Source: Acidobacteriaceae bacterium
GTDB taxonomy: Bacteria > Acidobacteriota > Terriglobia > Terriglobales > Acidobacteriaceae
Length of the DNA: 34,802 nucleotides
NCBI GenBank assembly: GCA_003138975.1
Contig: PLHQ01000037.1
Span: 614 to 35,415, forward strand
Direction of reading: 5' to 3'
Shown here: positions 903-8,950 of the stretch, piece after piece
How the letters are laid out: each line of letters begins with the position of its first letter
Numbering within the stretch: position 1 is the stretch's first letter
The notes under the pieces: model-generated
What the model was told of the DNA's origin: nothing
Database searches by the model: none
Seen by the model: only the letters and a program-made list of their open reading frames with translations
Translations under genes and position numbers: made by a program

Positions 903-1361
903 CTATTTGATGTAGTAGCCGGAAACTTTCCACTTCCCATCTTTATCCAGCATCGGTGTAACCGTCTCAACTGCCGACTGTTTGTGCTCGAACCCGCTCT
1001 CGTACTGAATCACGACGTACTCGCCATCCGGAGCACCCGGCAGCGTCGTGGTATACGTGGCGCTCTTTAGCTTGCGCGACAGCATTTTACCCAACGGATC
1101 GCGGCTCCCCCGCAGTACACCCTGCCACTGTTCCTTGGTGACAGCGGCCTTGAAAACCGGCGCGGCTTCCTGCCAACTCTCGGCATACTTGCCGGAATCC
1201 ACCAGCGCTAGCCAAGACTCCGCGGACTGTTGAGCCAGTTGCTCAGGCCTTTGCTGGGCTCGAACCGCCGGGCATATCGCCAGCAGAAGCATGAGGAAGG
1301 AAAAAGCTGCCCCTAACTTGAACTCCATCTGCCACATTCTGACATTCATTCTGGTTCTCAT
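903..1361 (-). CDS. DUF4019-type secreted protein (152 aa)
   Basis: This protein has an N-terminal signal peptide (hydrophobic core about residues 17-35, ending in Ala-x-Ala before QQRPEQ). The mature domain begins with a helix containing AESWLALVDSGKYAESW and ends WKVSGYYIK. That layout fits DUF4019, a small periplasmic domain of unknown function. The start is uncertain: Met1 lies nine bases after the pspA stop, while Met12 would give a more compact signal peptide. The tight spacing makes it part of the same transcript as pspA. The job is unknown. Position suggests an envelope-associated accessory of the PspA/flotillin module. Confidence 0.75.
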   Translation of the reverse strand: MRTRMNVRMWQMEFKLGAAFSFLMLLLAICPAVRAQQRPEQLAQQSAESWLALVDSGKYAESWQEAAPVFKAAVTKEQWQGVLRGSRDPLGKMLSRKLKSATYTTTLPGAPDGEYVVIQYESGFEHKQSAVETVTPMLDKDGKWKVSGYYIK

Positions 1362-1370
1362 TTGATCAAA

Positions 1371-2030
1371 TTATGCTCCCCGCTTCCCCTTCAACTCCGC
1401 CAGCAACTGCTCAATCCGATCTTCTTTCTCCAGCGCCGCCAGCCGGTCTTCCATGTTGTCTCCGGCAATTTCGGACTTCGCCTCGCTCAAGGCCTCCGAG
1501 TGCGCTACCTTCCGTTTCATGCGATCGAAAGCAGCCGCCTTCGAGCCATCTCCCATCGCCAGGCGCGCATCGCTAGCCTTGCCCACGGCTCGGGCGCGGC
1601 GATGCTGCGCGATCAACAGATCCGCCTTGGCCTGCGCCTCAGTCAGCTTCTGTTCCAGCTGCCGCAGCGCGGACTTCAGATTCTCCACCTGCGCCTTCTG
1701 GTCGGTCACTTGCTGCGCGAAACTCTCACTCAGCTCACGATAACTTTCCATTCGCTGCAGCGATGCACGGGCTAAGTCATCCTGTTTCTTATCCACAGAC
1801 AGCTCGGCCTTGCGCATCCACTCCGCCACTTTTTCTTCGTTCTCTCTCCGCTTTTTCTCCAGCAGGTGCTCATCGGCAATAGCGATCGCCACCTGCGTCT
1901 TTACCTGCAGCAGCTGATTTTGCATGTCGAGAATCACCTGCTTGATCATCTTTTCCGGCTCCTCGGCCTTATCGATCAGGTCATTGAGGTTGGCTCGGAC
2001 TAATGTGGAAACACGCTCTAGTAACGCCAT
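1371..2030 (-). CDS. pspA: PspA/IM30 family membrane-stress protein
   Basis: At 219 aa this is the usual PspA/Vipp1 length. It is almost entirely charged coiled coil. It starts with the amphipathic helix MALLERVSTLVRANLNDLID, followed by the family signature of a Pro between helices (EEPEKMIKQ) and long heptads up to about residue 215. PspA proteins are ESCRT-III relatives that assemble on the inner face of the cytoplasmic membrane and stabilise it under stress. AAGGAGT ten bases before the ATG is a strong ribosome site. No pspF, pspB or pspC lies nearby; the operon instead carries an XRE regulator, an NfeD-like protein and a flotillin. Assignment is firm; the partner set is the unusual part. 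Confidence 0.95.
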   Translation of the reverse strand: MALLERVSTLVRANLNDLIDKAEEPEKMIKQVILDMQNQLLQVKTQVAIAIADEHLLEKKRRENEEKVAEWMRKAELSVDKKQDDLARASLQRMESYRELSESFAQQVTDQKAQVENLKSALRQLEQKLTEAQAKADLLIAQHRRARAVGKASDARLAMGDGSKAAAFDRMKRKVAHSEALSEAKSEIAGDNMEDRLAALEKEDRIEQLLAELKGKRGA

Positions 2031-2051
2031 GATGGACTCCTTTTTGAACTT

Positions 2052-2273
2052 CTAGCTCTGTAGCTGCTTCGCATTCACTTCATGTGCCCGGTGCAGAGCA
2101 GCGCACTCGGGGCATTGTTTTTCTGCGCGCCGGAAGGTTGCGCCGAGAGCCATTCCAATCGCGATCCCGACGCCCAACCAAATCGCAACGTGCCCGGCCA
2201 GAACTCCGGCAGCCGCGCCCAGCGCCGCTCCTAGCGCGATGCCCAATCCCGTATGTTTCGATTTGCCTGCCAT
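2052..2273 (-). CDS. glycine-zipper mini-membrane protein (73 aa)
   Basis: From the ATG at 2273 the protein reads MAGKSKHTGLG and then two Gly/Ala-spaced hydrophobic helices (about residues 8-28 and 30-46). A cytoplasmic-looking tail follows with a CPEC pair (CxxC) and charged residues. The GxxxG-like spacing in the helices is a glycine zipper, typical of membrane-spanning oligomerising peptides. A longer in-frame start exists at 2342, but AGGAG lies seven bases before 2273 and the extra residues look non-coding. The gene sits between flotillin and pspA, 21 bases from pspA. The CxxC tail could bind a metal or be redox active, which is inference. Confidence 0.8.
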   Translation of the reverse strand: MAGKSKHTGLGIALGAALGAAAGVLAGHVAIWLGVGIAIGMALGATFRRAEKQCPECAALHRAHEVNAKQLQS

Positions 2274-2338
2274 TTCCTTGCTCCTGCTGCCAAAAAGAAA
2301 ACAGACGAGTGACGATCCGAAACGCGTCCTTCTGCTTA

Positions 2339-3781
2339 TCACTTCGTTGCGTCCACCACCGGAGGTTTCGGCGTGTGATCACCAAGTTGCCGTACCTTGC
2401 CTAACAGTTCCGAGAGCGGCATGCCCGAAAGCGTCTCGAACAACGCTGGCACCTGCGCCGCCATCTTCGCGATATCGCCGGTGATTTTGTTCATCCCGGA
2501 TGCATCGCCGTTTCCGGTAGACACAATGGTGATCTTGTCCACGTTCGCCAGCGGACTGGCCAATGCCTTCACCACTTCCGGCATGCAGGTAAACAGCCGG
2601 TCGATCACTGCCGCCTGGTTGTATTCCTGATAAGCCTCGGCTTTCACGTTCATGGCCTTGGCTTCGGATTCGCCTTTCTTGAAAATGATTTCCGCCTCGG
2701 CCTCGCCCTGAGCGCGTATCGACGACGCGTGCCCTTCCGCTTCCGCGATCAGGCGCTGCTTTTCGGCCGCAGCCAGTGTCTCGATCCGCTGACGCTCGAT
2801 CTCCGCTCCCTTCAGCACGGTCGCAATTAGTTCTTTCTCACGGCGGTTGATTTCCGCTTCCTGCACCTTCACCTGCTGCTCTTTCTCGATTTGCTGCACT
2901 TTCACCTGCTCGGCGATCACCTGCTGTTGCATGATGTTGGTCTGGATGTCGTACGCCTTGTCGGCCTGCGCCTGCTGGCGTTTCGTGACTTCGAGGAATT
3001 GTGCTTTTTTCACTTCGAGGTCACGCTGCGATTCCGCTTGCTTGGCCAAAGACAAAGTTTCCGCCAGCACGCGTTCCTGATCGGCCTGTGCCTTGGCCAC
3101 AGCCGCTTCCCGCTGAGCCAGCGCGCGCTTGATCGCCGTATCGCGGTCAGCTTCCGCTGTGGCAACATCGGCGTCGCGCTTGATTCGCGCCACATCCGGC
3201 TTGCCCATGTTGGTGATGTATTCGTTCTTATCGCGAACTTCCTTGATGGTGAACGAGATCACCTCGAGCCCCATCTTGTTCATGTCCTCAGCACACGTAG
3301 ACCGCATACGGTCGGAAACCATCTCCGGCTGCTTGACGATCTCCTCCACCGTGAGCTGTCCGATGATGCCCCGCAGATGCCCTTCCATCACCAGCCGGAT
3401 CAGCCCTTCGCGCTCCTGATCGCTCTTGGTCAGGAACTGCTCGGCCGCCGTCAGCACAGACTCGCGATCGGACTTCACTTTGATCTGCGCAACAGCTTCG
3501 ACAGTCACCGCTACACCCTGTTTGGTGTAGAGATCCTGCTGCGGCGCCACATCGAACGACATTAGTTCAAGGGATAGGTCCCGACACACTTGCACCATCG
3601 GAAGCACCAAGGTGCCGTGTCCCTGCACCACACGTGTCCCGCCCAGGCCATACACGATGAGTGCTTCGTGGGGCCCCGCTTTGCGATATAGCCTGGCCAT
3701 TCCGCTCATCAGGAACAGAACAACCATCACTCCCAGCCCGGCGAAAATCCAAATCTCAACCATCCGCGACATCTCGAACAT
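2339..3781 (-). CDS. flotillin-like SPFH/band 7 protein (480 aa)
   Basis: The order of parts is an N-terminal membrane anchor (residues about 8-29), an SPFH/band-7 domain (about 35-200, starting AGPHEALIVYG), then a very long Glu/Ala/Lys-rich coiled coil with EAE and AEAEG repeats (about 205-380), and a C-terminal region rich in Met and Leu. This is the flotillin architecture (FloT/YqiK class, 480-550 aa). Flotillins form clusters in the cytoplasmic membrane and organise ordered lipid domains. GGAGGAGG before the ATG is a near-perfect ribosome site. Its operon neighbour NfeD/YqiJ-like protein is the known partner type (YuaF-FloT, YqiJ-YqiK). It ends 65 bases before the glycine-zipper gene. 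Confidence 0.93.
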   Translation of the reverse strand: MFEMSRMVEIWIFAGLGVMVVLFLMSGMARLYRKAGPHEALIVYGLGGTRVVQGHGTLVLPMVQVCRDLSLELMSFDVAPQQDLYTKQGVAVTVEAVAQIKVKSDRESVLTAAEQFLTKSDQEREGLIRLVMEGHLRGIIGQLTVEEIVKQPEMVSDRMRSTCAEDMNKMGLEVISFTIKEVRDKNEYITNMGKPDVARIKRDADVATAEADRDTAIKRALAQREAAVAKAQADQERVLAETLSLAKQAESQRDLEVKKAQFLEVTKRQQAQADKAYDIQTNIMQQQVIAEQVKVQQIEKEQQVKVQEAEINRREKELIATVLKGAEIERQRIETLAAAEKQRLIAEAEGHASSIRAQGEAEAEIIFKKGESEAKAMNVKAEAYQEYNQAAVIDRLFTCMPEVVKALASPLANVDKITIVSTGNGDASGMNKITGDIAKMAAQVPALFETLSGMPLSELLGKVRQLGDHTPKPPVVDATK

Positions 3782-3792
3782 AACGCCTCCTC

Positions 3793-4248
3793 CTACGAAT
3801 GCAGTTTCAAAAGAATCAATGAAGCAAACCGTTCGGCCGCGTCTCGATCATGAAAAACAATCAACTCGGCGAACGGAGTAGGTTGCTGCCCGCCAAGGTT
3901 GCGATCCACGACCCAGCCGTTTACGTGGTAAACGAAACCAAGCACGCCATAAAAGACGGCGACAATTGCCCAGCTGGCCACAATCGAACTGGTGCGCCTC
4001 GATGCGTAGCCGGCAATCGTAAACATCGCGAGCAGGAAGGCCGTACCAGCTAAGGCAAGCATGCGAGCCCCTTCCCGCGAGGTCCACCCATTCGGTTGCC
4101 AATTCACGTCGAAATGCACCGCCATGCGCATCGGTAAACGATCCCATGCGGTCCAATATTTCAGCGCAGTCAGCGGCAACGCCAACCAGGCCAGCCCAGC
4201 CTCGGCTTGAAATATTTTTCGTTCGATAGAGTCTCCTCGCCGCAACAT
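3793..4248 (-). CDS. DUF1648-like membrane protein (151 aa)
   Basis: The protein has three to four predicted membrane helices. In the first third it carries the DUF1648 signature: LPMRMAVHFDVNWQPNGW, i.e. a Pro, a HFD and a PNGW motif. In many bacteria this domain is part of SdpI-like or sigma-factor-associated membrane proteins; its biochemical role is not settled. The in-frame ORF reaches back to 4377, but that would overlap the upstream NfeD-like gene by 95 bases, so I chose the Met at 4248. It lies 34 bases after the NfeD gene and 11 bases before flotillin, so it is co-transcribed. Confidence 0.75.
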   Translation of the reverse strand: MLRRGDSIERKIFQAEAGLAWLALPLTALKYWTAWDRLPMRMAVHFDVNWQPNGWTSREGARMLALAGTAFLLAMFTIAGYASRRTSSIVASWAIVAVFYGVLGFVYHVNGWVVDRNLGGQQPTPFAELIVFHDRDAAERFASLILLKLHS

Positions 4249-4282
4249 ACCCCGAAACCCGAAAACACAAAACCGCAATTCG

Positions 4283-4954
4283 CTACTCCTCCCCGGACAT
4301 CTCGCTCCATAACCGAACGTAAGCAATTCCTTTTTCGTAGCGCGTAACCACAACTTCTGTTCCCTTGCCGATGGCACTGCTATCCTCGCTACGCGCGCCG
4401 CATACGCGACGCGTCCCCATCTGCGTGTAAATCATCTCTCCCGTTCCTCCAGCGCGAATCGCACTGCAGATTCGGCCCAGCACTCCCACCATTTCGTAAT
4501 CTGCGGGATCCATGTTCTCTTCGTCCGAGATCAGCAGTTTGCTCAGGAACAGGAACACAATGCCTCCGCCGACCAGCCCGCTGATGATTGACGCCAGCAA
4601 TCCGAAGCCGACCCACACTCCGGAGTAACGCGTAAGCAGATATCCGGTCCCGCCGAACCAGGCCAGGAACGCCGTCAGCGTGACGAAGTTGAACGGTGAA
4701 ACTCCGCTGCTCTGCTGTCCAGCCTGACTGGCTGCTGCATTCGTCCCAGCCGGGGCGTGACCCGAGGCAACCGGTGCATGTGGCGCCGGACCACCCGCCG
4801 GCGGAAGATGTGTCCCGCCCGCATGCCCGTGGAAATGCAGCAGATGCAAGCGGCCCGTGCGTGCGCCTCCGAATACAAACGAAAAGAAACTGAAGCAGAA
4901 GCCGACCGCGAAACAGATCAAATAAAAGTCAGCCCATGTCATGGAGTGATTCAT
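4283..4954 (-). CDS. NfeD/YqiJ-like OB-fold membrane protein (223 aa)
   Basis: It has an N-terminal membrane helix (about residues 9-29), then a Pro/Ala/His-rich linker (37-85) with seven histidines between 37 and 66. Two further membrane helices follow (about 88-107 and 112-137), then a C-terminal soluble beta domain (about 150-223) with GRICSAIRAGGTGEM and KGTEVVVTRYEKGIAYV, typical of the NfeD/YqiJ OB fold. Such proteins partner flotillins at membrane domains. Its ATG overlaps the regulator's stop as ATGA (4951-4954), implying translational coupling. The His-rich linker is not usual for the family and could bind a metal; that is inference. Confidence 0.85.
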   Translation of the reverse strand: MNHSMTWADFYLICFAVGFCFSFFSFVFGGARTGRLHLLHFHGHAGGTHLPPAGGPAPHAPVASGHAPAGTNAAASQAGQQSSGVSPFNFVTLTAFLAWFGGTGYLLTRYSGVWVGFGLLASIISGLVGGGIVFLFLSKLLISDEENMDPADYEMVGVLGRICSAIRAGGTGEMIYTQMGTRRVCGARSEDSSAIGKGTEVVVTRYEKGIAYVRLWSEMSGEE

Positions 4955-5532
4955 CGGATTTGCCTGCCTTCTGCACCGGCCGTGCGGTCCCGACTTTCGT
5001 GATGAAGACTTTCGCGACGATTCTCCCGGCCCTGAGTTCCGCGGCGGTGATTCACACTCGCCATCAACTCCGGCCGCAGTGCTTCGAGCAGACGTTCAGC
5101 CAGCCCGGGCGTGTCCAGAATCGCGCCCAACAGCAGCAAACAGCGGCGCGTGTCTTTCTCGCGCGCGGCCTTAATCAGCACGTCGCTTACCTCCGGGTCG
5201 CTGACGAAACGCTCCGACCCTTGCAACAGCCAGACATCAAGCTGCCCTTCCGTCGTGCGCAAGTCCGAGGTCAGTTCCGTGTGATAACCCTCCGGGTCGT
5301 CCACCAGAAAACCGGGATGCACCTTAAAAAACTTCGCCAGCAGCGCCCGCGACGACTGCGTCATGTGCCGCCGGGTGCCGCTTTCGATCTGCGACAAATA
5401 CGACTGGCTAATGCTCTTGCGCAGCTCCTGGCGAACCGCCCTCACAACCTCCTGCTGCGTCATGGGACGCGCCAAGCCGCGCAGCGAACCTTCCACCTCG
5501 CGCAAGTAACGGATTTTCTCGCCCAGTTTCAT
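4951..5532 (-). CDS. XRE-type HTH transcriptional regulator (193 aa)
   Basis: Residues about 5-75 form a Cro/C1-type helix-turn-helix. Typical elements are the MTQQEVVRAV first helix and the recognition segment SQSYLSQIESGTRR. The rest (80-165) is a helical region that probably dimerises or senses something, and the tail (166-193) is basic and looks disordered. It is the first gene of the flotillin/PspA operon and overlaps the NfeD-like gene by ATGA. An AT-rich palindrome lies 10-45 bases upstream of its start, inside its own promoter, so autoregulation is likely. It is not a PspF-type (sigma-54) activator, so the psp regulation here is of a different kind. Confidence 0.88.
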   Translation of the reverse strand: MKLGEKIRYLREVEGSLRGLARPMTQQEVVRAVRQELRKSISQSYLSQIESGTRRHMTQSSRALLAKFFKVHPGFLVDDPEGYHTELTSDLRTTEGQLDVWLLQGSERFVSDPEVSDVLIKAAREKDTRRCLLLLGAILDTPGLAERLLEALRPELMASVNHRRGTQGRENRRESLHHESRDRTAGAEGRQIR

Positions 5533-5542
5533 ATCTCAAATC

Positions 5543-5577
5543 GACATATTTATATTGCAATATGCGATATATGTCAA
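5543..5577 (-). promoter_or_regulatory. strong sigma-70-type promoter with nested palindromic operator for the XRE-flotillin-pspA operon
   Basis: On the minus strand there is TTGACA (5572-5577), a 17-base spacer, then TATAAA (5549-5554), close to the ideal sigma-70 spacing and sequence. The spacer contains the perfect palindrome ATATTGCAATAT (5552-5563). An outer inverted repeat, GACATAT (5543-5549) with ATATGTC (5569-5575), brackets the promoter. Transcription should begin near 5542, about ten bases before the ATG at 5532, so the leader is very short and without a clear Shine-Dalgarno. The palindrome is a plausible site for the XRE protein encoded next door. Confidence 0.7.
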
Positions 5578-5617: not shown

Positions 5618-6409
5618 CTACAGGCCGGCTTCGATCCGGGAGCGGGGGTCGAGATAATCGCGCAGCGCGTCGCCGATAAAGTTGAACGACAGCACAGCCA
5701 GCATCACGGCGAGCGCCGGAAAAAGCACGAGGTGCGGAGCGTCGAATAGGTGGGCGCGGCCGTCGTTGAGCATCGTTCCCCAGCTAGCCGTGGGCGGAGG
5801 TACACCGAGTCCTAGAAAGCTCATAGTGGCTTCGGCCAGGATCGCTCCAGCCATGCCGATCGCCGCCTGCACGATCACCGGTTGAATGATGTTGGGCAGA
5901 ATGTGGCGCACGATGATGCGCAGGTCGCTCGCGCCAAGCGCACGCGCAGCTTCAACGAATTCGCGTTCGCGCGCGGCGAGGACTTGTCCGCGGACCAGAC
6001 GAGCGTAGCCTACCCATCCGCCGAGTGAGAGCGCGAGAACAAGATTGAAGATGCCAGGACCGCGAAACGCGACGAAGGCAATGGCAAGGAGGATTCCAGG
6101 GAACGAGAGGAACGCGTTCATCAGGACGACGTTAACGAAGCGGTCGATGCCTCCGCCGTAATAGCCAGCGATGGAACCGATGATGAGGCCTAGCGCGAGC
6201 GACGTTAGCACCACGCAACTTCCGACCAGCATAGAGATGCGTGAGCCGTAGATGATGCGCGAAAGAATGTCGCGGCCAAGTTCGTCGGTGCCGAACCAGT
6301 GCGCGTGCGATGTAGCGTCGAGTCGAGCAGGGAGATTGATAGCTGCGGGATCTTGCGGCGCGATCCAAGGCGCGAACAGCGCAAAGATCACAAAGACTAC
6401 GACCAACAC
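5618..6409 (-). CDS. DppC/OppC-like ABC transporter permease
   Basis: This is an inner-membrane permease of the peptide/nickel importer family. It has an OppC N-terminal segment (LFAPWIAPQDP), the HWFGTDELGRDILSR signature, about six membrane helices, and the EAA loop EAARALGASDLRIIVRHILPN (about residues 152-172) that docks on the ATPase. Its partner dppB starts at 8792, unusually far away. The 5' end is doubtful. GTG at 6409 starts within the first membrane helix, while in-frame codons back to 6484 encode a typical basic pre-helix tail (ISFHRAARHNPLA). There is no ATG there, only ATT/ATC, with a TAA at 6485-6487. So the start is either non-standard or the N-terminus is damaged. No ATPase or binding protein is in the window. 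Confidence 0.85.
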   Translation of the reverse strand: MLVVVFVIFALFAPWIAPQDPAAINLPARLDATSHAHWFGTDELGRDILSRIIYGSRISMLVGSCVVLTSLALGLIIGSIAGYYGGGIDRFVNVVLMNAFLSFPGILLAIAFVAFRGPGIFNLVLALSLGGWVGYARLVRGQVLAAREREFVEAARALGASDLRIIVRHILPNIIQPVIVQAAIGMAGAILAEATMSFLGLGVPPPTASWGTMLNDGRAHLFDAPHLVLFPALAVMLAVLSFNFIGDALRDYLDPRSRIEAGL

Positions 6410-6619: not shown

Positions 6620-7027
6620 TTACCACACTTCTAGCTGGAACTTGCGATAACTATGGATCATCTCGAAATCGGTGCGGTTGGACGTAATCAGGCGGGCGCC
6701 GCGGGAGCGAGCGGTGAGAGCGATTAGGACATCGCAGTGAAGATCGCGAAGCTTCCCCGGCGTCAGGCCTCGGGCCGCTCGAATGTCTGCGAGGATCTGC
6801 CCGGACTCCAGCCAGTTCTTTTCCGTCGGGGTCAGGATGGGATGGTTCCGGCCCAGTACGCGCAACAAATCGCGCTCTGCAGTGCCGACTGCGCCACGCC
6901 ACAATTCCGCCAGGACGACTGACGACATGCGGATCAAACCAGAGATGGATTCAATCCTGCTGCGATTCTGGCCGGTGCGGAGATCGTCGACCAGAACGGA
7001 CGTATCGAAGATTACCAGGTCACTCAT
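6620..7027 (-). CDS. vapC: VapC-like PIN-domain toxin ribonuclease
   Basis: The 135-aa protein is a full-length PIN domain. From the ATG at 7027, the acidic metal-binding residues are visible: Asp8 in FDTSVLVD, Glu41 in LAELWRG, Asp99 in HCDVLIALTA and the SNRTDF segment near 118-122. VapC toxins are magnesium-dependent endoribonucleases that cut tRNA or rRNA and are neutralised by VapB. I chose ATG over the preceding TTG because it makes the usual short overlap with vapB (ATGAGTGA, eight bases). GGGA precedes it. It lies in the insert between dppB and dppC. Assignment is secure; the RNA target cannot be read from the sequence. Confidence 0.92.
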   Translation of the reverse strand: MSDLVIFDTSVLVDDLRTGQNRSRIESISGLIRMSSVVLAELWRGAVGTAERDLLRVLGRNHPILTPTEKNWLESGQILADIRAARGLTPGKLRDLHCDVLIALTARSRGARLITSNRTDFEMIHSYRKFQLEVW

Positions 7028-7208
7028 CAAGTCCCGAGAACTTCAATTTGCCGGAGTTCCTTTTCATCAGGGCCTTGAATCGCTTGAGAGCGACCATTTC
7101 GCGGAGGGCGATGTGAACGGCATCGGTTCGGGATTTCGCTCCGAGGACTTTCACGGCCTCATCGGCCAGGTCGGTATCCAGGCGGATTGTTGTCATGGTC
7201 ACAGCCAT
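7020..7208 (-). CDS. vapB: VapB-like antitoxin (62 aa)
   Basis: The N-terminal half reads MTTIRLDTDLADEAVKVLGAKSRTDAVHIALREMV, which fits a ribbon-helix-helix DNA-binding antitoxin of the type II VapB class. The C-terminal part is basic and probably wraps the toxin. The start at 7208 has AAGG about ten bases upstream; an internal Met at 7196 is the alternative. Translation is coupled to vapC by an eight-base overlap. The operator site upstream (two GTATATAC copies) is what such proteins bind for autorepression. Confidence 0.88.
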   Translation of the reverse strand: MAVTMTTIRLDTDLADEAVKVLGAKSRTDAVHIALREMVALKRFKALMKRNSGKLKFSGLDE

Positions 7209-7324: not shown

Positions 7325-7633
7325 TCAGGCGCTCTGCGGTTGGTACGGATGACCCTCGTACCACTCCTCGCTCAAATCTCTCCAGGCTGGATTGACTGAA
7401 ACGACGAGCGCGATTTTCTTGATTCGCAACTAGCCCTTGATGCGCTTCTCGCGCTCAATTGCGTTGTGAACGTCCTGGAATCGCTCAAAATAAGCGAGGC
7501 GGTCGAGCTTATATTTCGCGATGAATCCAGAGCCGATGCCAGTCTTGTGTTCCCGCACGCGGCGCGCGAGATTGTTGGTGACGCCTGTGTACAAGGTCTT
7601 CGACCGGTTCGTCATGATGTAGACAAAGTACAT
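7325..7633 (-). pseudogene. GIY-YIG nuclease-domain protein interrupted by an amber codon
   Basis: The reading frame starts MYFVYIMTNRSKTLYTGVTN, with the GIY-YIG motif in the form VYI...YTG, the catalytic-type Arg in LARRVREH, and the late EREKRIKG segment. It then meets TAG at 7430-7432. Beyond that TAG the same frame continues with LRIKKIALV, then NPAWRDLSEEW, to a TGA at 7325-7327. That is the normal C-terminal end of these roughly 100-aa proteins. In relatives the codon after IKG is normally Trp, so TGG to TAG is the simplest explanation. It may still yield a 67-residue product. Family members are small standalone nuclease domains of unclear role (YhbQ-like). The first bases lie inside a REP-like repeat. 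Confidence 0.8.
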
Positions 7634-7634
7634 G

Positions 7635-7668
7635 GGTCCTTCGCGCAAAGAACGCGCTCAGGATGACA
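7635..7668. repeat. REP-like repeat, short copy
   Basis: GGTCCTTCGCG is followed by a short pairing arm around AAAGAA and then CTCAGGATGACA. It shares the GGTCC(C)T left end and GGATGACA right end with the copies at 7738 and 8820. It overlaps the 5' edge of the GIY-YIG pseudogene. Confidence 0.5.
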
Positions 7669-7877: not shown

Positions 7878-8792
7878 TTACTGCCTAATCCTAGGGTTCG
7901 CCACCGAGTACAGGACGTCCGTCAGGAAATTCACGGCGACGTACGTCAAGCCTATCGCCAGAATGCAGCCCTGCACCAGATAGTAATCGCGATTCGAGAT
8001 GGCTTGGATCGTGAGGCGGCCGATGCCGGGCCAGGAGAAGATTGTCTCGGTCACGATTGCGCCCGCGAGTAACGCACCGAACTGCAGGCCGAGGACGGTG
8101 ATGATCGGGATCATGGCGTTGCGCAGAGCGTGGCGGTAGACGACGGTGCCCTCGGGCAGGCCTTTGGCGCGGGCGGTGCGGATGTAGTCCTGGCTTAGCT
8201 CTTCGAGCATGGAGGTGCGCACCATGCGGGTGAGGATGGCGGCGAGCGCTCCGCCCATGGTGATGGCGGGGAGCACGAGGTTGGCGAACGAGCCGGCGCC
8301 GGAGACGGGCAGCCATCCCAGCTTGATGGCGAAGAGAAGAATGAGGATGGGGCCGAGCGCGAAGTTGGGGAATGACAGGCCGAAGAGGCTGACCACGCTG
8401 AGCAGGCGATCGTCCCAACGGTTGCGGCGCTGGGCGGAGCGCACGCCTGCGGGAATCGACAGGACGATGGCGACGACGAGCGATGCGAGCGTGAGCTGCA
8501 GGGTGTAGGGATAGCGCTGGGTGAGTAGGTGCGTCACGCTTTGGTTGTAGCGGAACGATGGGCCGAGGTCGCCGCGCAGAACGCCTTTCCAGTAGTGGAT
8601 GTATTGCTGACCGATCGGCGCGTCGAGGCCGTAGGCGTGGCGGGTGGCGGCGATGTCGGCGGGCGGCGCGCCTTCGCCGAGCATCTGCTGGATGGGATCT
8701 CCGGGGACAAGATGGATTAACAGGAAGACGAGGCTCACGACGAGCCAGATTACTGGCAGGGTGTAGAGGACGCGTTGGAAGAGTAAGCGCAT
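7878..8792 (-). CDS. DppB/OppB-like ABC transporter permease (304 aa)
   Basis: It begins MRLLFQRVLYTLPVIWLVVSLVFLLIHLVPGDP, the classic first helix and VPGDP motif of the OppB/DppB family. The family's GLDAPIGQQY periplasmic segment follows, then five further helices. The EAA loop DYIRTARAKGLPEGTVVYRHALRNAMIPI contacts the ATPase. I rejected the longer in-frame start at 8942 because it reads through a REP-like hairpin. No clear Shine-Dalgarno precedes 8792. It forms the heterodimeric pore with DppC, encoded 1.4 kb downstream beyond the vapBC insert. Substrate (peptide, nickel or other) cannot be judged without the binding protein. Confidence 0.92.
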   Translation of the reverse strand: MRLLFQRVLYTLPVIWLVVSLVFLLIHLVPGDPIQQMLGEGAPPADIAATRHAYGLDAPIGQQYIHYWKGVLRGDLGPSFRYNQSVTHLLTQRYPYTLQLTLASLVVAIVLSIPAGVRSAQRRNRWDDRLLSVVSLFGLSFPNFALGPILILLFAIKLGWLPVSGAGSFANLVLPAITMGGALAAILTRMVRTSMLEELSQDYIRTARAKGLPEGTVVYRHALRNAMIPIITVLGLQFGALLAGAIVTETIFSWPGIGRLTIQAISNRDYYLVQGCILAIGLTYVAVNFLTDVLYSVANPRIRQ

Positions 8793-8819
8793 GAAGTCAG
8801 TGGCGTGTGCAGAAACAGC

Positions 8820-8880
8820 AGGTCCCTCCACTCCGCCTCTCATTCCCATCGGGAATGAGAGACTCCAGTCGGGATGACAA
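8820..8880. repeat. REP-like palindromic repeat, copy with 11-bp stem
   Basis: The left end is AGGTCCCTCCACTCCGC. A perfect 11-bp stem (CTCTCATTCCC at 8837-8847 with GGGAATGAGAG at 8851-8861) closes on a three-base loop. The right end is GTCGGGATGACAA. It stands just upstream of the dppB start. Confidence 0.7.
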
Positions 8881-8904
8881 TTCCAAACCGAGCGTCGCTC
8901 GAAT

Positions 8905-8926
8905 GGACAGCCGAGGGCGGCTGTCC
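8905..8926. repeat. perfect hairpin GGACAGCCG-AGGG-CGGCTGTCC
   Basis: A 9-bp perfect stem with a four-base loop lies between the dppB start and the stop of the CNNM/CorC gene. No T-tract follows on either strand, so it is a poor intrinsic terminator and is better called a second type of dispersed hairpin element. Confidence 0.55.
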
Positions 8927-8950
8927 CCACACAGTACAACATTCAAGTTC

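Follow-up and report, generated by a model that had tools for sequence, protein, structure and literature searches.

A flotillin-NfeD-PspA operon of Acidobacteriaceae with a putative XRE-type autorepressor and a double palindrome at its promoter

The membranes of many bacteria are protected by PspA and flotillin, and the way in which these genes are turned on has been worked out in a few model organisms only. For Acidobacteriota, the text of Popp et al. 2022 (PMC9239133) reports PspA with a band-7/Flot protein in 11 of the 19 PspAs analysed, names NfeD as a partner and records helix-turn-helix (HTH) regulators in the PspA operons of this phylum. Associations of band-7 proteins, flotillin and YqiJ/YuaF in other settings are described in PMC11237479 (2024). 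The system considered here lies in a stretch of 34,802 nucleotides (the window) from an Acidobacteriaceae bacterium (GenBank assembly GCA_003138975.1, contig PLHQ01000037.1, positions 614–35,415 of the forward strand), where seven tightly spaced minus-strand genes (903–5532) stand downstream of one conserved promoter. We propose that this is probably an operon for membrane maintenance by flotillin, NfeD and PspA, controlled by an XRE autorepressor of its own, which would be released by an envelope signal. A preliminary description of this DNA had listed the seven genes in the order XRE regulator, NfeD-like, DUF1648, flotillin, glycine-zipper, PspA and DUF4019; this order is confirmed in full. 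The same description had remarked that PspA beside flotillin or NfeD is known in other bacteria.

The core of the operon is four genes. In the window they encode the XRE-type regulator (4951–5532), an NfeD/YuaF-like membrane protein (4283–4954) with a 4-base overlap with the XRE stop, a FloT-like SPFH protein of the flotillin type (2339–3781) and a PspA/IM30 family protein (1371–2030), all on the minus strand. For comparison, 70 longer XRE loci were fetched, of which 10 came from the 11 matches in the phylum (own genome left out) and 60 from the family list, selected mainly for room on the contig. The order XRE-NfeD-Flot-PspA is found on one strand in 68 of these 70, the exceptions (L072 and L078) having XRE and PspA without NfeD and Flot. 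The PspA copies of these two loci look damaged, one being partial and the other interrupted by an in-frame stop, a picture that resembles operon decay. A second set consisted of 80 named loci (270 were confirmed in all), mostly from Acidobacteriaceae, Acidobacteria, Terriglobia or Candidatus Sulfotelmatobacter, and the order was kept in 52 of the 54 that had 5 kb downstream. Because genomes overlap between the sets, the 70-locus and 80-locus counts are not independent, and since every locus was picked by its XRE match, they are silent on the frequency of NfeD-Flot-PspA without XRE. When the loci were reduced to 102 distinct ones (window included; small proteins are undercounted), an NfeD gene and an SPFH gene were present together in 100.

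XRE matches were obtained in 113 of 200 genomes of the window's family and in 11 of 199 genomes of the phylum, and a search with profile A2 found XRE in 28 of 396 phylum genomes, six of which are outside the window's family, one of them a very weak match (E = 7.4e-4). PspA (PF04012) is present in 120 of the same 200 family genomes, in 118 of them above the cut-off. The two tables were compared by hand, and genomes unlisted were counted as having no match: 111 genomes had both XRE and PspA, two had XRE only (G244 and G323), nine had PspA only and 78 had neither (Fisher p = 2e-42, without correction for relatedness). Among the genomes with PspA only, several are fragmented assemblies or have low-scoring matches, and both XRE-only assemblies consist of about 600 contigs. 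The window's own genome has one PspA match at E ≤ 0.001. Strong support for an operon of membrane-maintenance genes led by XRE comes from the gene order in both sets, the co-occurrence of XRE and PspA and the conserved promoter; in the loci compared, XRE, NfeD, flotillin and PspA stay together, the accessory genes being patchy.

The promoter TTGACA-17-TATAAA at 5549–5577 is the sole one with evidence in the operon. Its −35 element, TTGACA (5572–5577, minus strand), is supported by sequence and conservation, and its −10 element is TATAAA (5549–5554, minus strand). A generic sigma-70 scan, which requires T at the sixth −10 position, found no minus-strand promoter; it missed this one because the −10 ends in A, and the promoter was read from the alignment instead. 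Terminator-like sites number three on both strands, fewer than in shuffles (mean 6.3), and the sole one on the minus strand lies inside the DUF1648 gene. The one-promoter operon described earlier is retained as regards its single conserved promoter, and the shared transcript is putative.

Two 15-bp palindromes, ATYGC-N5-GCRAT, placed 6 bp apart (21 bp centre-to-centre), bracket the −10 element of the XRE promoter. In the window, candidate operator 1 (ATCGC-ATATT-GCAAT; 5554–5568, minus strand) is a perfect palindrome in these terms, lies in the −35/−10 spacer and has one base, the first of the −10 element, in common with it. Candidate operator 2 (ATGTC-GATTT-GAGAT; 5533–5547, minus strand) directly adjoins the start codon of XRE and overlies the position at which transcription is expected to begin. 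The best pair is spaced exactly 6 bp in 73 of 79 distinct XRE upstream regions, and 113 of 127 (which include the 79) score at least 17 out of 20. That score is reached by one of 1270 dinucleotide shuffles, and none of 302 upstream regions of NfeD, Flot and PspA exceeds 16. Among the 120 upstream regions that score at least 16, TTGACA is matched at 5–6 of its 6 positions, 16–18 bp from the −10, in 98 and TATAAT at 4–6 of its 6 positions in 116, while operator 2 is at distance 0 from the start codon in 59. With the template fixed beforehand, the site is present immediately ahead of XRE, scoring 18–19 out of 20, in seven of ten newly fetched loci (two belong to family f28 and five to the window's family); L252, L253 and L256 are without it. 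A pattern with 5-bp spacing, which had no match in the window and seven unrelated matches in its own genome, was dropped in favour of 6 bp. The short distance from the −10 to the ATG suggests a leader of about 10 bases and weak translation of the presumed repressor. A conserved candidate operator that overlaps the regulator's own promoter is the arrangement of autorepressed XRE regulons; it goes beyond what the preliminary description had read in this DNA.

The double site was sought with the family pattern in 20 genomes at up to 3 mismatches, with the reversed pattern as a control. The XRE promoter carries it in all 20, in 16 with no more than 2 mismatches and in four, the window's genome included, with 3, and no double site with 2 or fewer mismatches was found outside the XRE promoter in these genomes. 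A pattern tuned to the window gave one site in its own genome. The double site thus appears close to unique, and some weak extra targets may exist.

The window's XRE protein scores 18.8 bits with HTH_3, below the Pfam cut-off of 23; of the 55 aligned XRE proteins, the window's among them, 44 give an HTH_3 match at E ≤ 0.01. The best profile matches in the PDB are EspR chains, at E = 4.9e-07 (3qwg) and 2.6e-06, the next row being at 0.1 in both. Folding from the single sequence was poor (mean predicted local distance difference test, pLDDT, 42.1), and we used an AlphaFold model from the 55-row alignment instead (mean pLDDT 81.1, predicted template modelling score 0.46), which has a five-helix DNA-binding half followed by a conserved, helical C-terminal half. 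In structure comparison EspR came first (Z 11.0, root-mean-square deviation 2.3, 82 residues, 27% identity), with the CI protein of TP901-1 (Z 10.3) within 1 Z unit and so level with it, and structure therefore gives no preference to EspR. Foldseek with the same model returned no PDB match at E ≤ 0.001, the best (4.6e-03) being EspR. We describe the DNA-binding half as EspR-like; the structural matches listed are confined to model residues 1–90, and the C-terminal half is barely probed by the fold search. Residues 42–50, mostly invariant in the 55 rows, are likely to be the recognition helix. The XRE half-site has a TTGC core in common with the EspR consensus, which is given as TTTGC[TC][GA] in the text of PMC3315491. 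ClgR was considered as the closest relative; no ClgR chain is present at E ≤ 1 among the profile matches listed, though a relation between the two may still exist.

In the circuit that we favour, XRE dimers would occupy both 15-bp palindromes in the unstressed cell, two helical turns apart and on the same DNA face. With one palindrome between the −35 and the −10 and the other over the start site, RNA polymerase would be shut out. An envelope signal, perhaps sensed by the NfeD, flotillin or PspA proteins and relayed to the C-terminal half of XRE, would weaken XRE binding; the whole unit would then be transcribed, the membrane proteins would scaffold and shield the damaged membrane, and fresh XRE would close the promoter again. 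Sites that bracket the −10 box are in the usual position for a repressor, and the arrangement found here suits one. The envelope-stress module proposed earlier stands as an XRE-led operon of membrane genes; a role in stress is suggested by what the PspA and flotillin families are known to do.

Several points weigh against this circuit. Operator 2 of the window is degenerate, with 7 of 10 defined positions matching, and the whole window site scores 17; 14 of the 127 XRE upstream regions score under 17, some of which may have misplaced starts. As the template was derived from mostly the same, related sequences, the scores describe conservation and are not a test of prediction, to which the ten newly fetched loci come closest. 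The survey of 20 genomes also gave seven further places in six genomes, two in G262 and one each in G094, G084, G346, G310 and G315, all with 3 mismatches, against one for the reversed pattern. XRE has no recognised ligand-binding domain, which leaves the release step unexplained, and the divergent loci L252 and L253, of another family, have neither an adjacent PspA nor the standard double site, so that the circuit does not always include PspA. Finally, that XRE binds these sites, that it represses and what the signal is are inferred.

Since by profile no solved structure comes closer to the DNA-binding half than the EspR chains, and EspR binds hundreds of places as well as its own promoter according to the text of PMC3315491, XRE might be an EspR-like architectural or activating protein with many single chromosomal sites, for which this promoter would be the strongest autoregulatory spot. 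The seven places with 3 mismatches, compared with one for the reversed pattern, are in line with such a protein. We consider it unlikely, however, since XRE heads this operon in 68 of the 70 fetched loci, the double site at 2 or fewer mismatches is restricted to this promoter in the 20 genomes and sites on either side of the −10 suit a repressor. It is also conceivable that some other regulator, of global action, binds the palindromes and that XRE is a passenger with its target elsewhere, given that the site is tied to XRE by its position and by the TTGC core common to EspR sites. If a global regulator were at work, further close double sites would be likely elsewhere, and there are none at 2 or fewer mismatches in the 20 genomes. 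In addition, the site goes with the XRE gene and not with the starts of NfeD, Flot or PspA, and it persists before XRE in L072 and L078, which are without NfeD and Flot (15 and 17 out of 20), all of which makes this alternative improbable.

A further alternative concerns the stimulus: the circuit could sense metal or redox state, and not general membrane damage, by way of either the His-rich NfeD loop or the CxxC in the glycine-zipper protein. The NfeD protein has a His-rich segment after its first hydrophobic stretch, in which H37 and H42 are invariant and H40 is nearly so (17 rows, window included), and this segment may bind metal; CxxC is kept in many relatives of the glycine-zipper protein. 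Still, we regard metal or redox sensing as very unlikely, because the glycine-zipper gene is recognised in only 33 of the 102 distinct loci, some of its members are without cysteines and no metal-site family was matched. An autorepressor that responds to the envelope stays our preferred explanation, and its history may be glimpsed in more distant loci.

In L252 (family f25), XRE (48%) is accompanied by NfeD (39%) and a FloT-like flotillin (72%), with no PspA match adjoining. In L253, from the same family, XRE (49%) is followed by proteins of 286 and 638 amino acids (L253:3218–6049). The first has no family match; the second is flotillin-like by a weak match alone (22% over residues 30–116, E = 8e-4), and nothing was found for it in Pfam, NCBIfam (E ≤ 0.01) or PDB. 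Both genomes have one PspA-family gene elsewhere (40.9 and 66.6 bits, respectively). Neither promoter has the standard double site, and a closer-spaced variant is seen by eye in L252. Another locus of family f25, L017, possesses the entire core together with the standard double site. L256, with a weak partial XRE match (37%, E = 1.9e-4) and none of the other genes, was set aside. The pattern suggests that the older tie of the regulator is to NfeD and flotillin, three loci being too few for proof. As XRE leads NfeD or flotillin-like genes without an adjacent PspA in L252 and L253, there is a hint that PspA joined later. We tentatively raise, as a more speculative extension, a further form of PspA control besides PspF, LiaRS and ClgR, in which an EspR-like local repressor with NfeD and flotillin as ancestral clients would have acquired PspA later, its C-terminal half reading the membrane state by direct contact with an assembly of flotillin, NfeD and PspA.

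Family assignments were made with Pfam. PspA belongs to the PspA/IM30 family (PspA_IM30, 133.9 bits against a cut-off of 33.9, residues 3–217), and the flotillin is an SPFH protein (Band_7, 106.7 bits against 23.6; Flot, 31.8 against 27) that stays under the FloT equivalog cut-off (339.9 against 700 bits). The NfeD protein scores 12.8 bits with Pfam NfeD (cut-off 29.1), and three of the 17 aligned rows match at E ≤ 0.1; a profile of the 17 rows, window included, matches the solved YuaF structure 2k14 with E = 0.0034. DUF4019 (139.4 bits) and DUF1648 (32.2 bits) are both above their cut-offs, and the glycine-zipper protein and a putative lipoprotein (284–775) have no Pfam family above cut-off. 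Thus, the labels PspA, flotillin, DUF4019 and DUF1648 given in the preliminary description are borne out, XRE and NfeD remain below their thresholds and the glycine-zipper protein is without a family match. Its report that PspB and PspC are missing also holds, since a scan of eight proteins gave no match to either domain at E ≤ 1, and the operon is not a canonical PspF-PspABC system.

The remaining genes, all on the minus strand, are accessory. The DUF1648 membrane protein (3793–4248) most likely starts at 4248 rather than 4377, judged from its relatives; it is a short form, the corresponding open reading frames (ORFs) in relatives often being about 300 amino acids. The glycine-zipper membrane protein (2052–2273) has a C-terminal CxxC, and its relatives together with a preceding ribosome-site-like sequence indicate 2273 as the most likely start (73 amino acids). 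The DUF4019 protein (903–1361), a rare accessory, has an N-terminal hydrophobic segment, and the putative lipoprotein is a downstream neighbour. They are recognised in 31 (DUF1648), 33 (glycine-zipper), 10 (DUF4019) and 17 (lipoprotein) of the 102 distinct loci, and an extra cluster of glycine-zipper-like ORFs spans nine loci; with so patchy a presence, all four were rejected as core members. It had been suggested that DUF1648 and the CxxC glycine-zipper protein define a distinct module, a notion that we abandon, each being found in only about one third of the loci. DUF4019 stands behind PspA in nine of its ten loci, with gaps of 1–388 bases, and in L103 its position is between NfeD and flotillin; this placement speaks for a genuine, though optional, link. 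The distance of the lipoprotein from the last recognised gene is 9–1702 bases; its suggested membership amounts to linkage at a variable distance, and it is probably outside the operon core. A large alpha/beta-hydrolase (peptidase S9-like) gene is situated between NfeD and flotillin in L148 (L148:7192–9000), and a similar large ORF is at the same place in L149, so that the NfeD-Flot slot takes different cargo.

Upstream of the operon, the window has two minus-strand permease genes of a binding-protein-dependent (oligopeptide-type) transporter (5618–6409 and 7878–8942). They flank a PIN-domain protein gene with an adjoining VapB-type antitoxin gene (6620–7208, minus strand), likely a VapBC toxin-antitoxin pair, and a GIY-YIG gene (7430–7648), an arrangement that looks like an insertion into a transporter operon.

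What the locus offers is a compact putative circuit with a precise DNA site, found within a single family of Acidobacteriota in 113 of the 200 genomes. Used as a reporter, the 36-bp site could reveal the stress to which flotillin and PspA of Acidobacteriota respond, and whether the two act as one machine.

Comparison with the known systems places it as follows. The E. coli pspF-pspABC system, as described in the sources consulted, likewise has PspA under a dedicated adjoining regulator, but it differs in its PspB and PspC, domains that were not matched among the eight window proteins scanned. In the account of PMC11237479, the clgR-pspA-pspM-pspN operon of Mycobacterium tuberculosis likewise combines a Cro-like HTH regulator and PspA, whereas it has other membrane partners and no flotillin or NfeD, and ClgR is unique to Actinobacteria. 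The pspA-ydjGHI operon of Bacillus subtilis pairs PspA with an SPFH protein, and flotillin is known with a YqiJ/YuaF partner that is NfeD-like as here; these systems have other partner genes, and the descriptions consulted mention no XRE gene. EspR has a similar DNA-binding half and a TTGC core in its sites, but it is reported to bind hundreds of places, whereas close double sites are found here at one promoter alone (20 genomes). The closest likeness is the network of Popp et al. 2022 (PMC9239133), which holds the same PspA, band-7/Flot, NfeD and HTH regulators; in its text, figures aside, the term XRE is absent, the regulator family is unnamed and neither an operator nor accessory genes are given. 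The double operator and its control circuit were not found in the literature searched on PspA, flotillin, NfeD and their regulators (figures and supplements aside). In summary, the gene set is already known, and, as far as the literature searched shows, what is added here is the likely relatives of the regulator, the double site at its promoter, the near-uniqueness of that site and the accessory status of the other genes.

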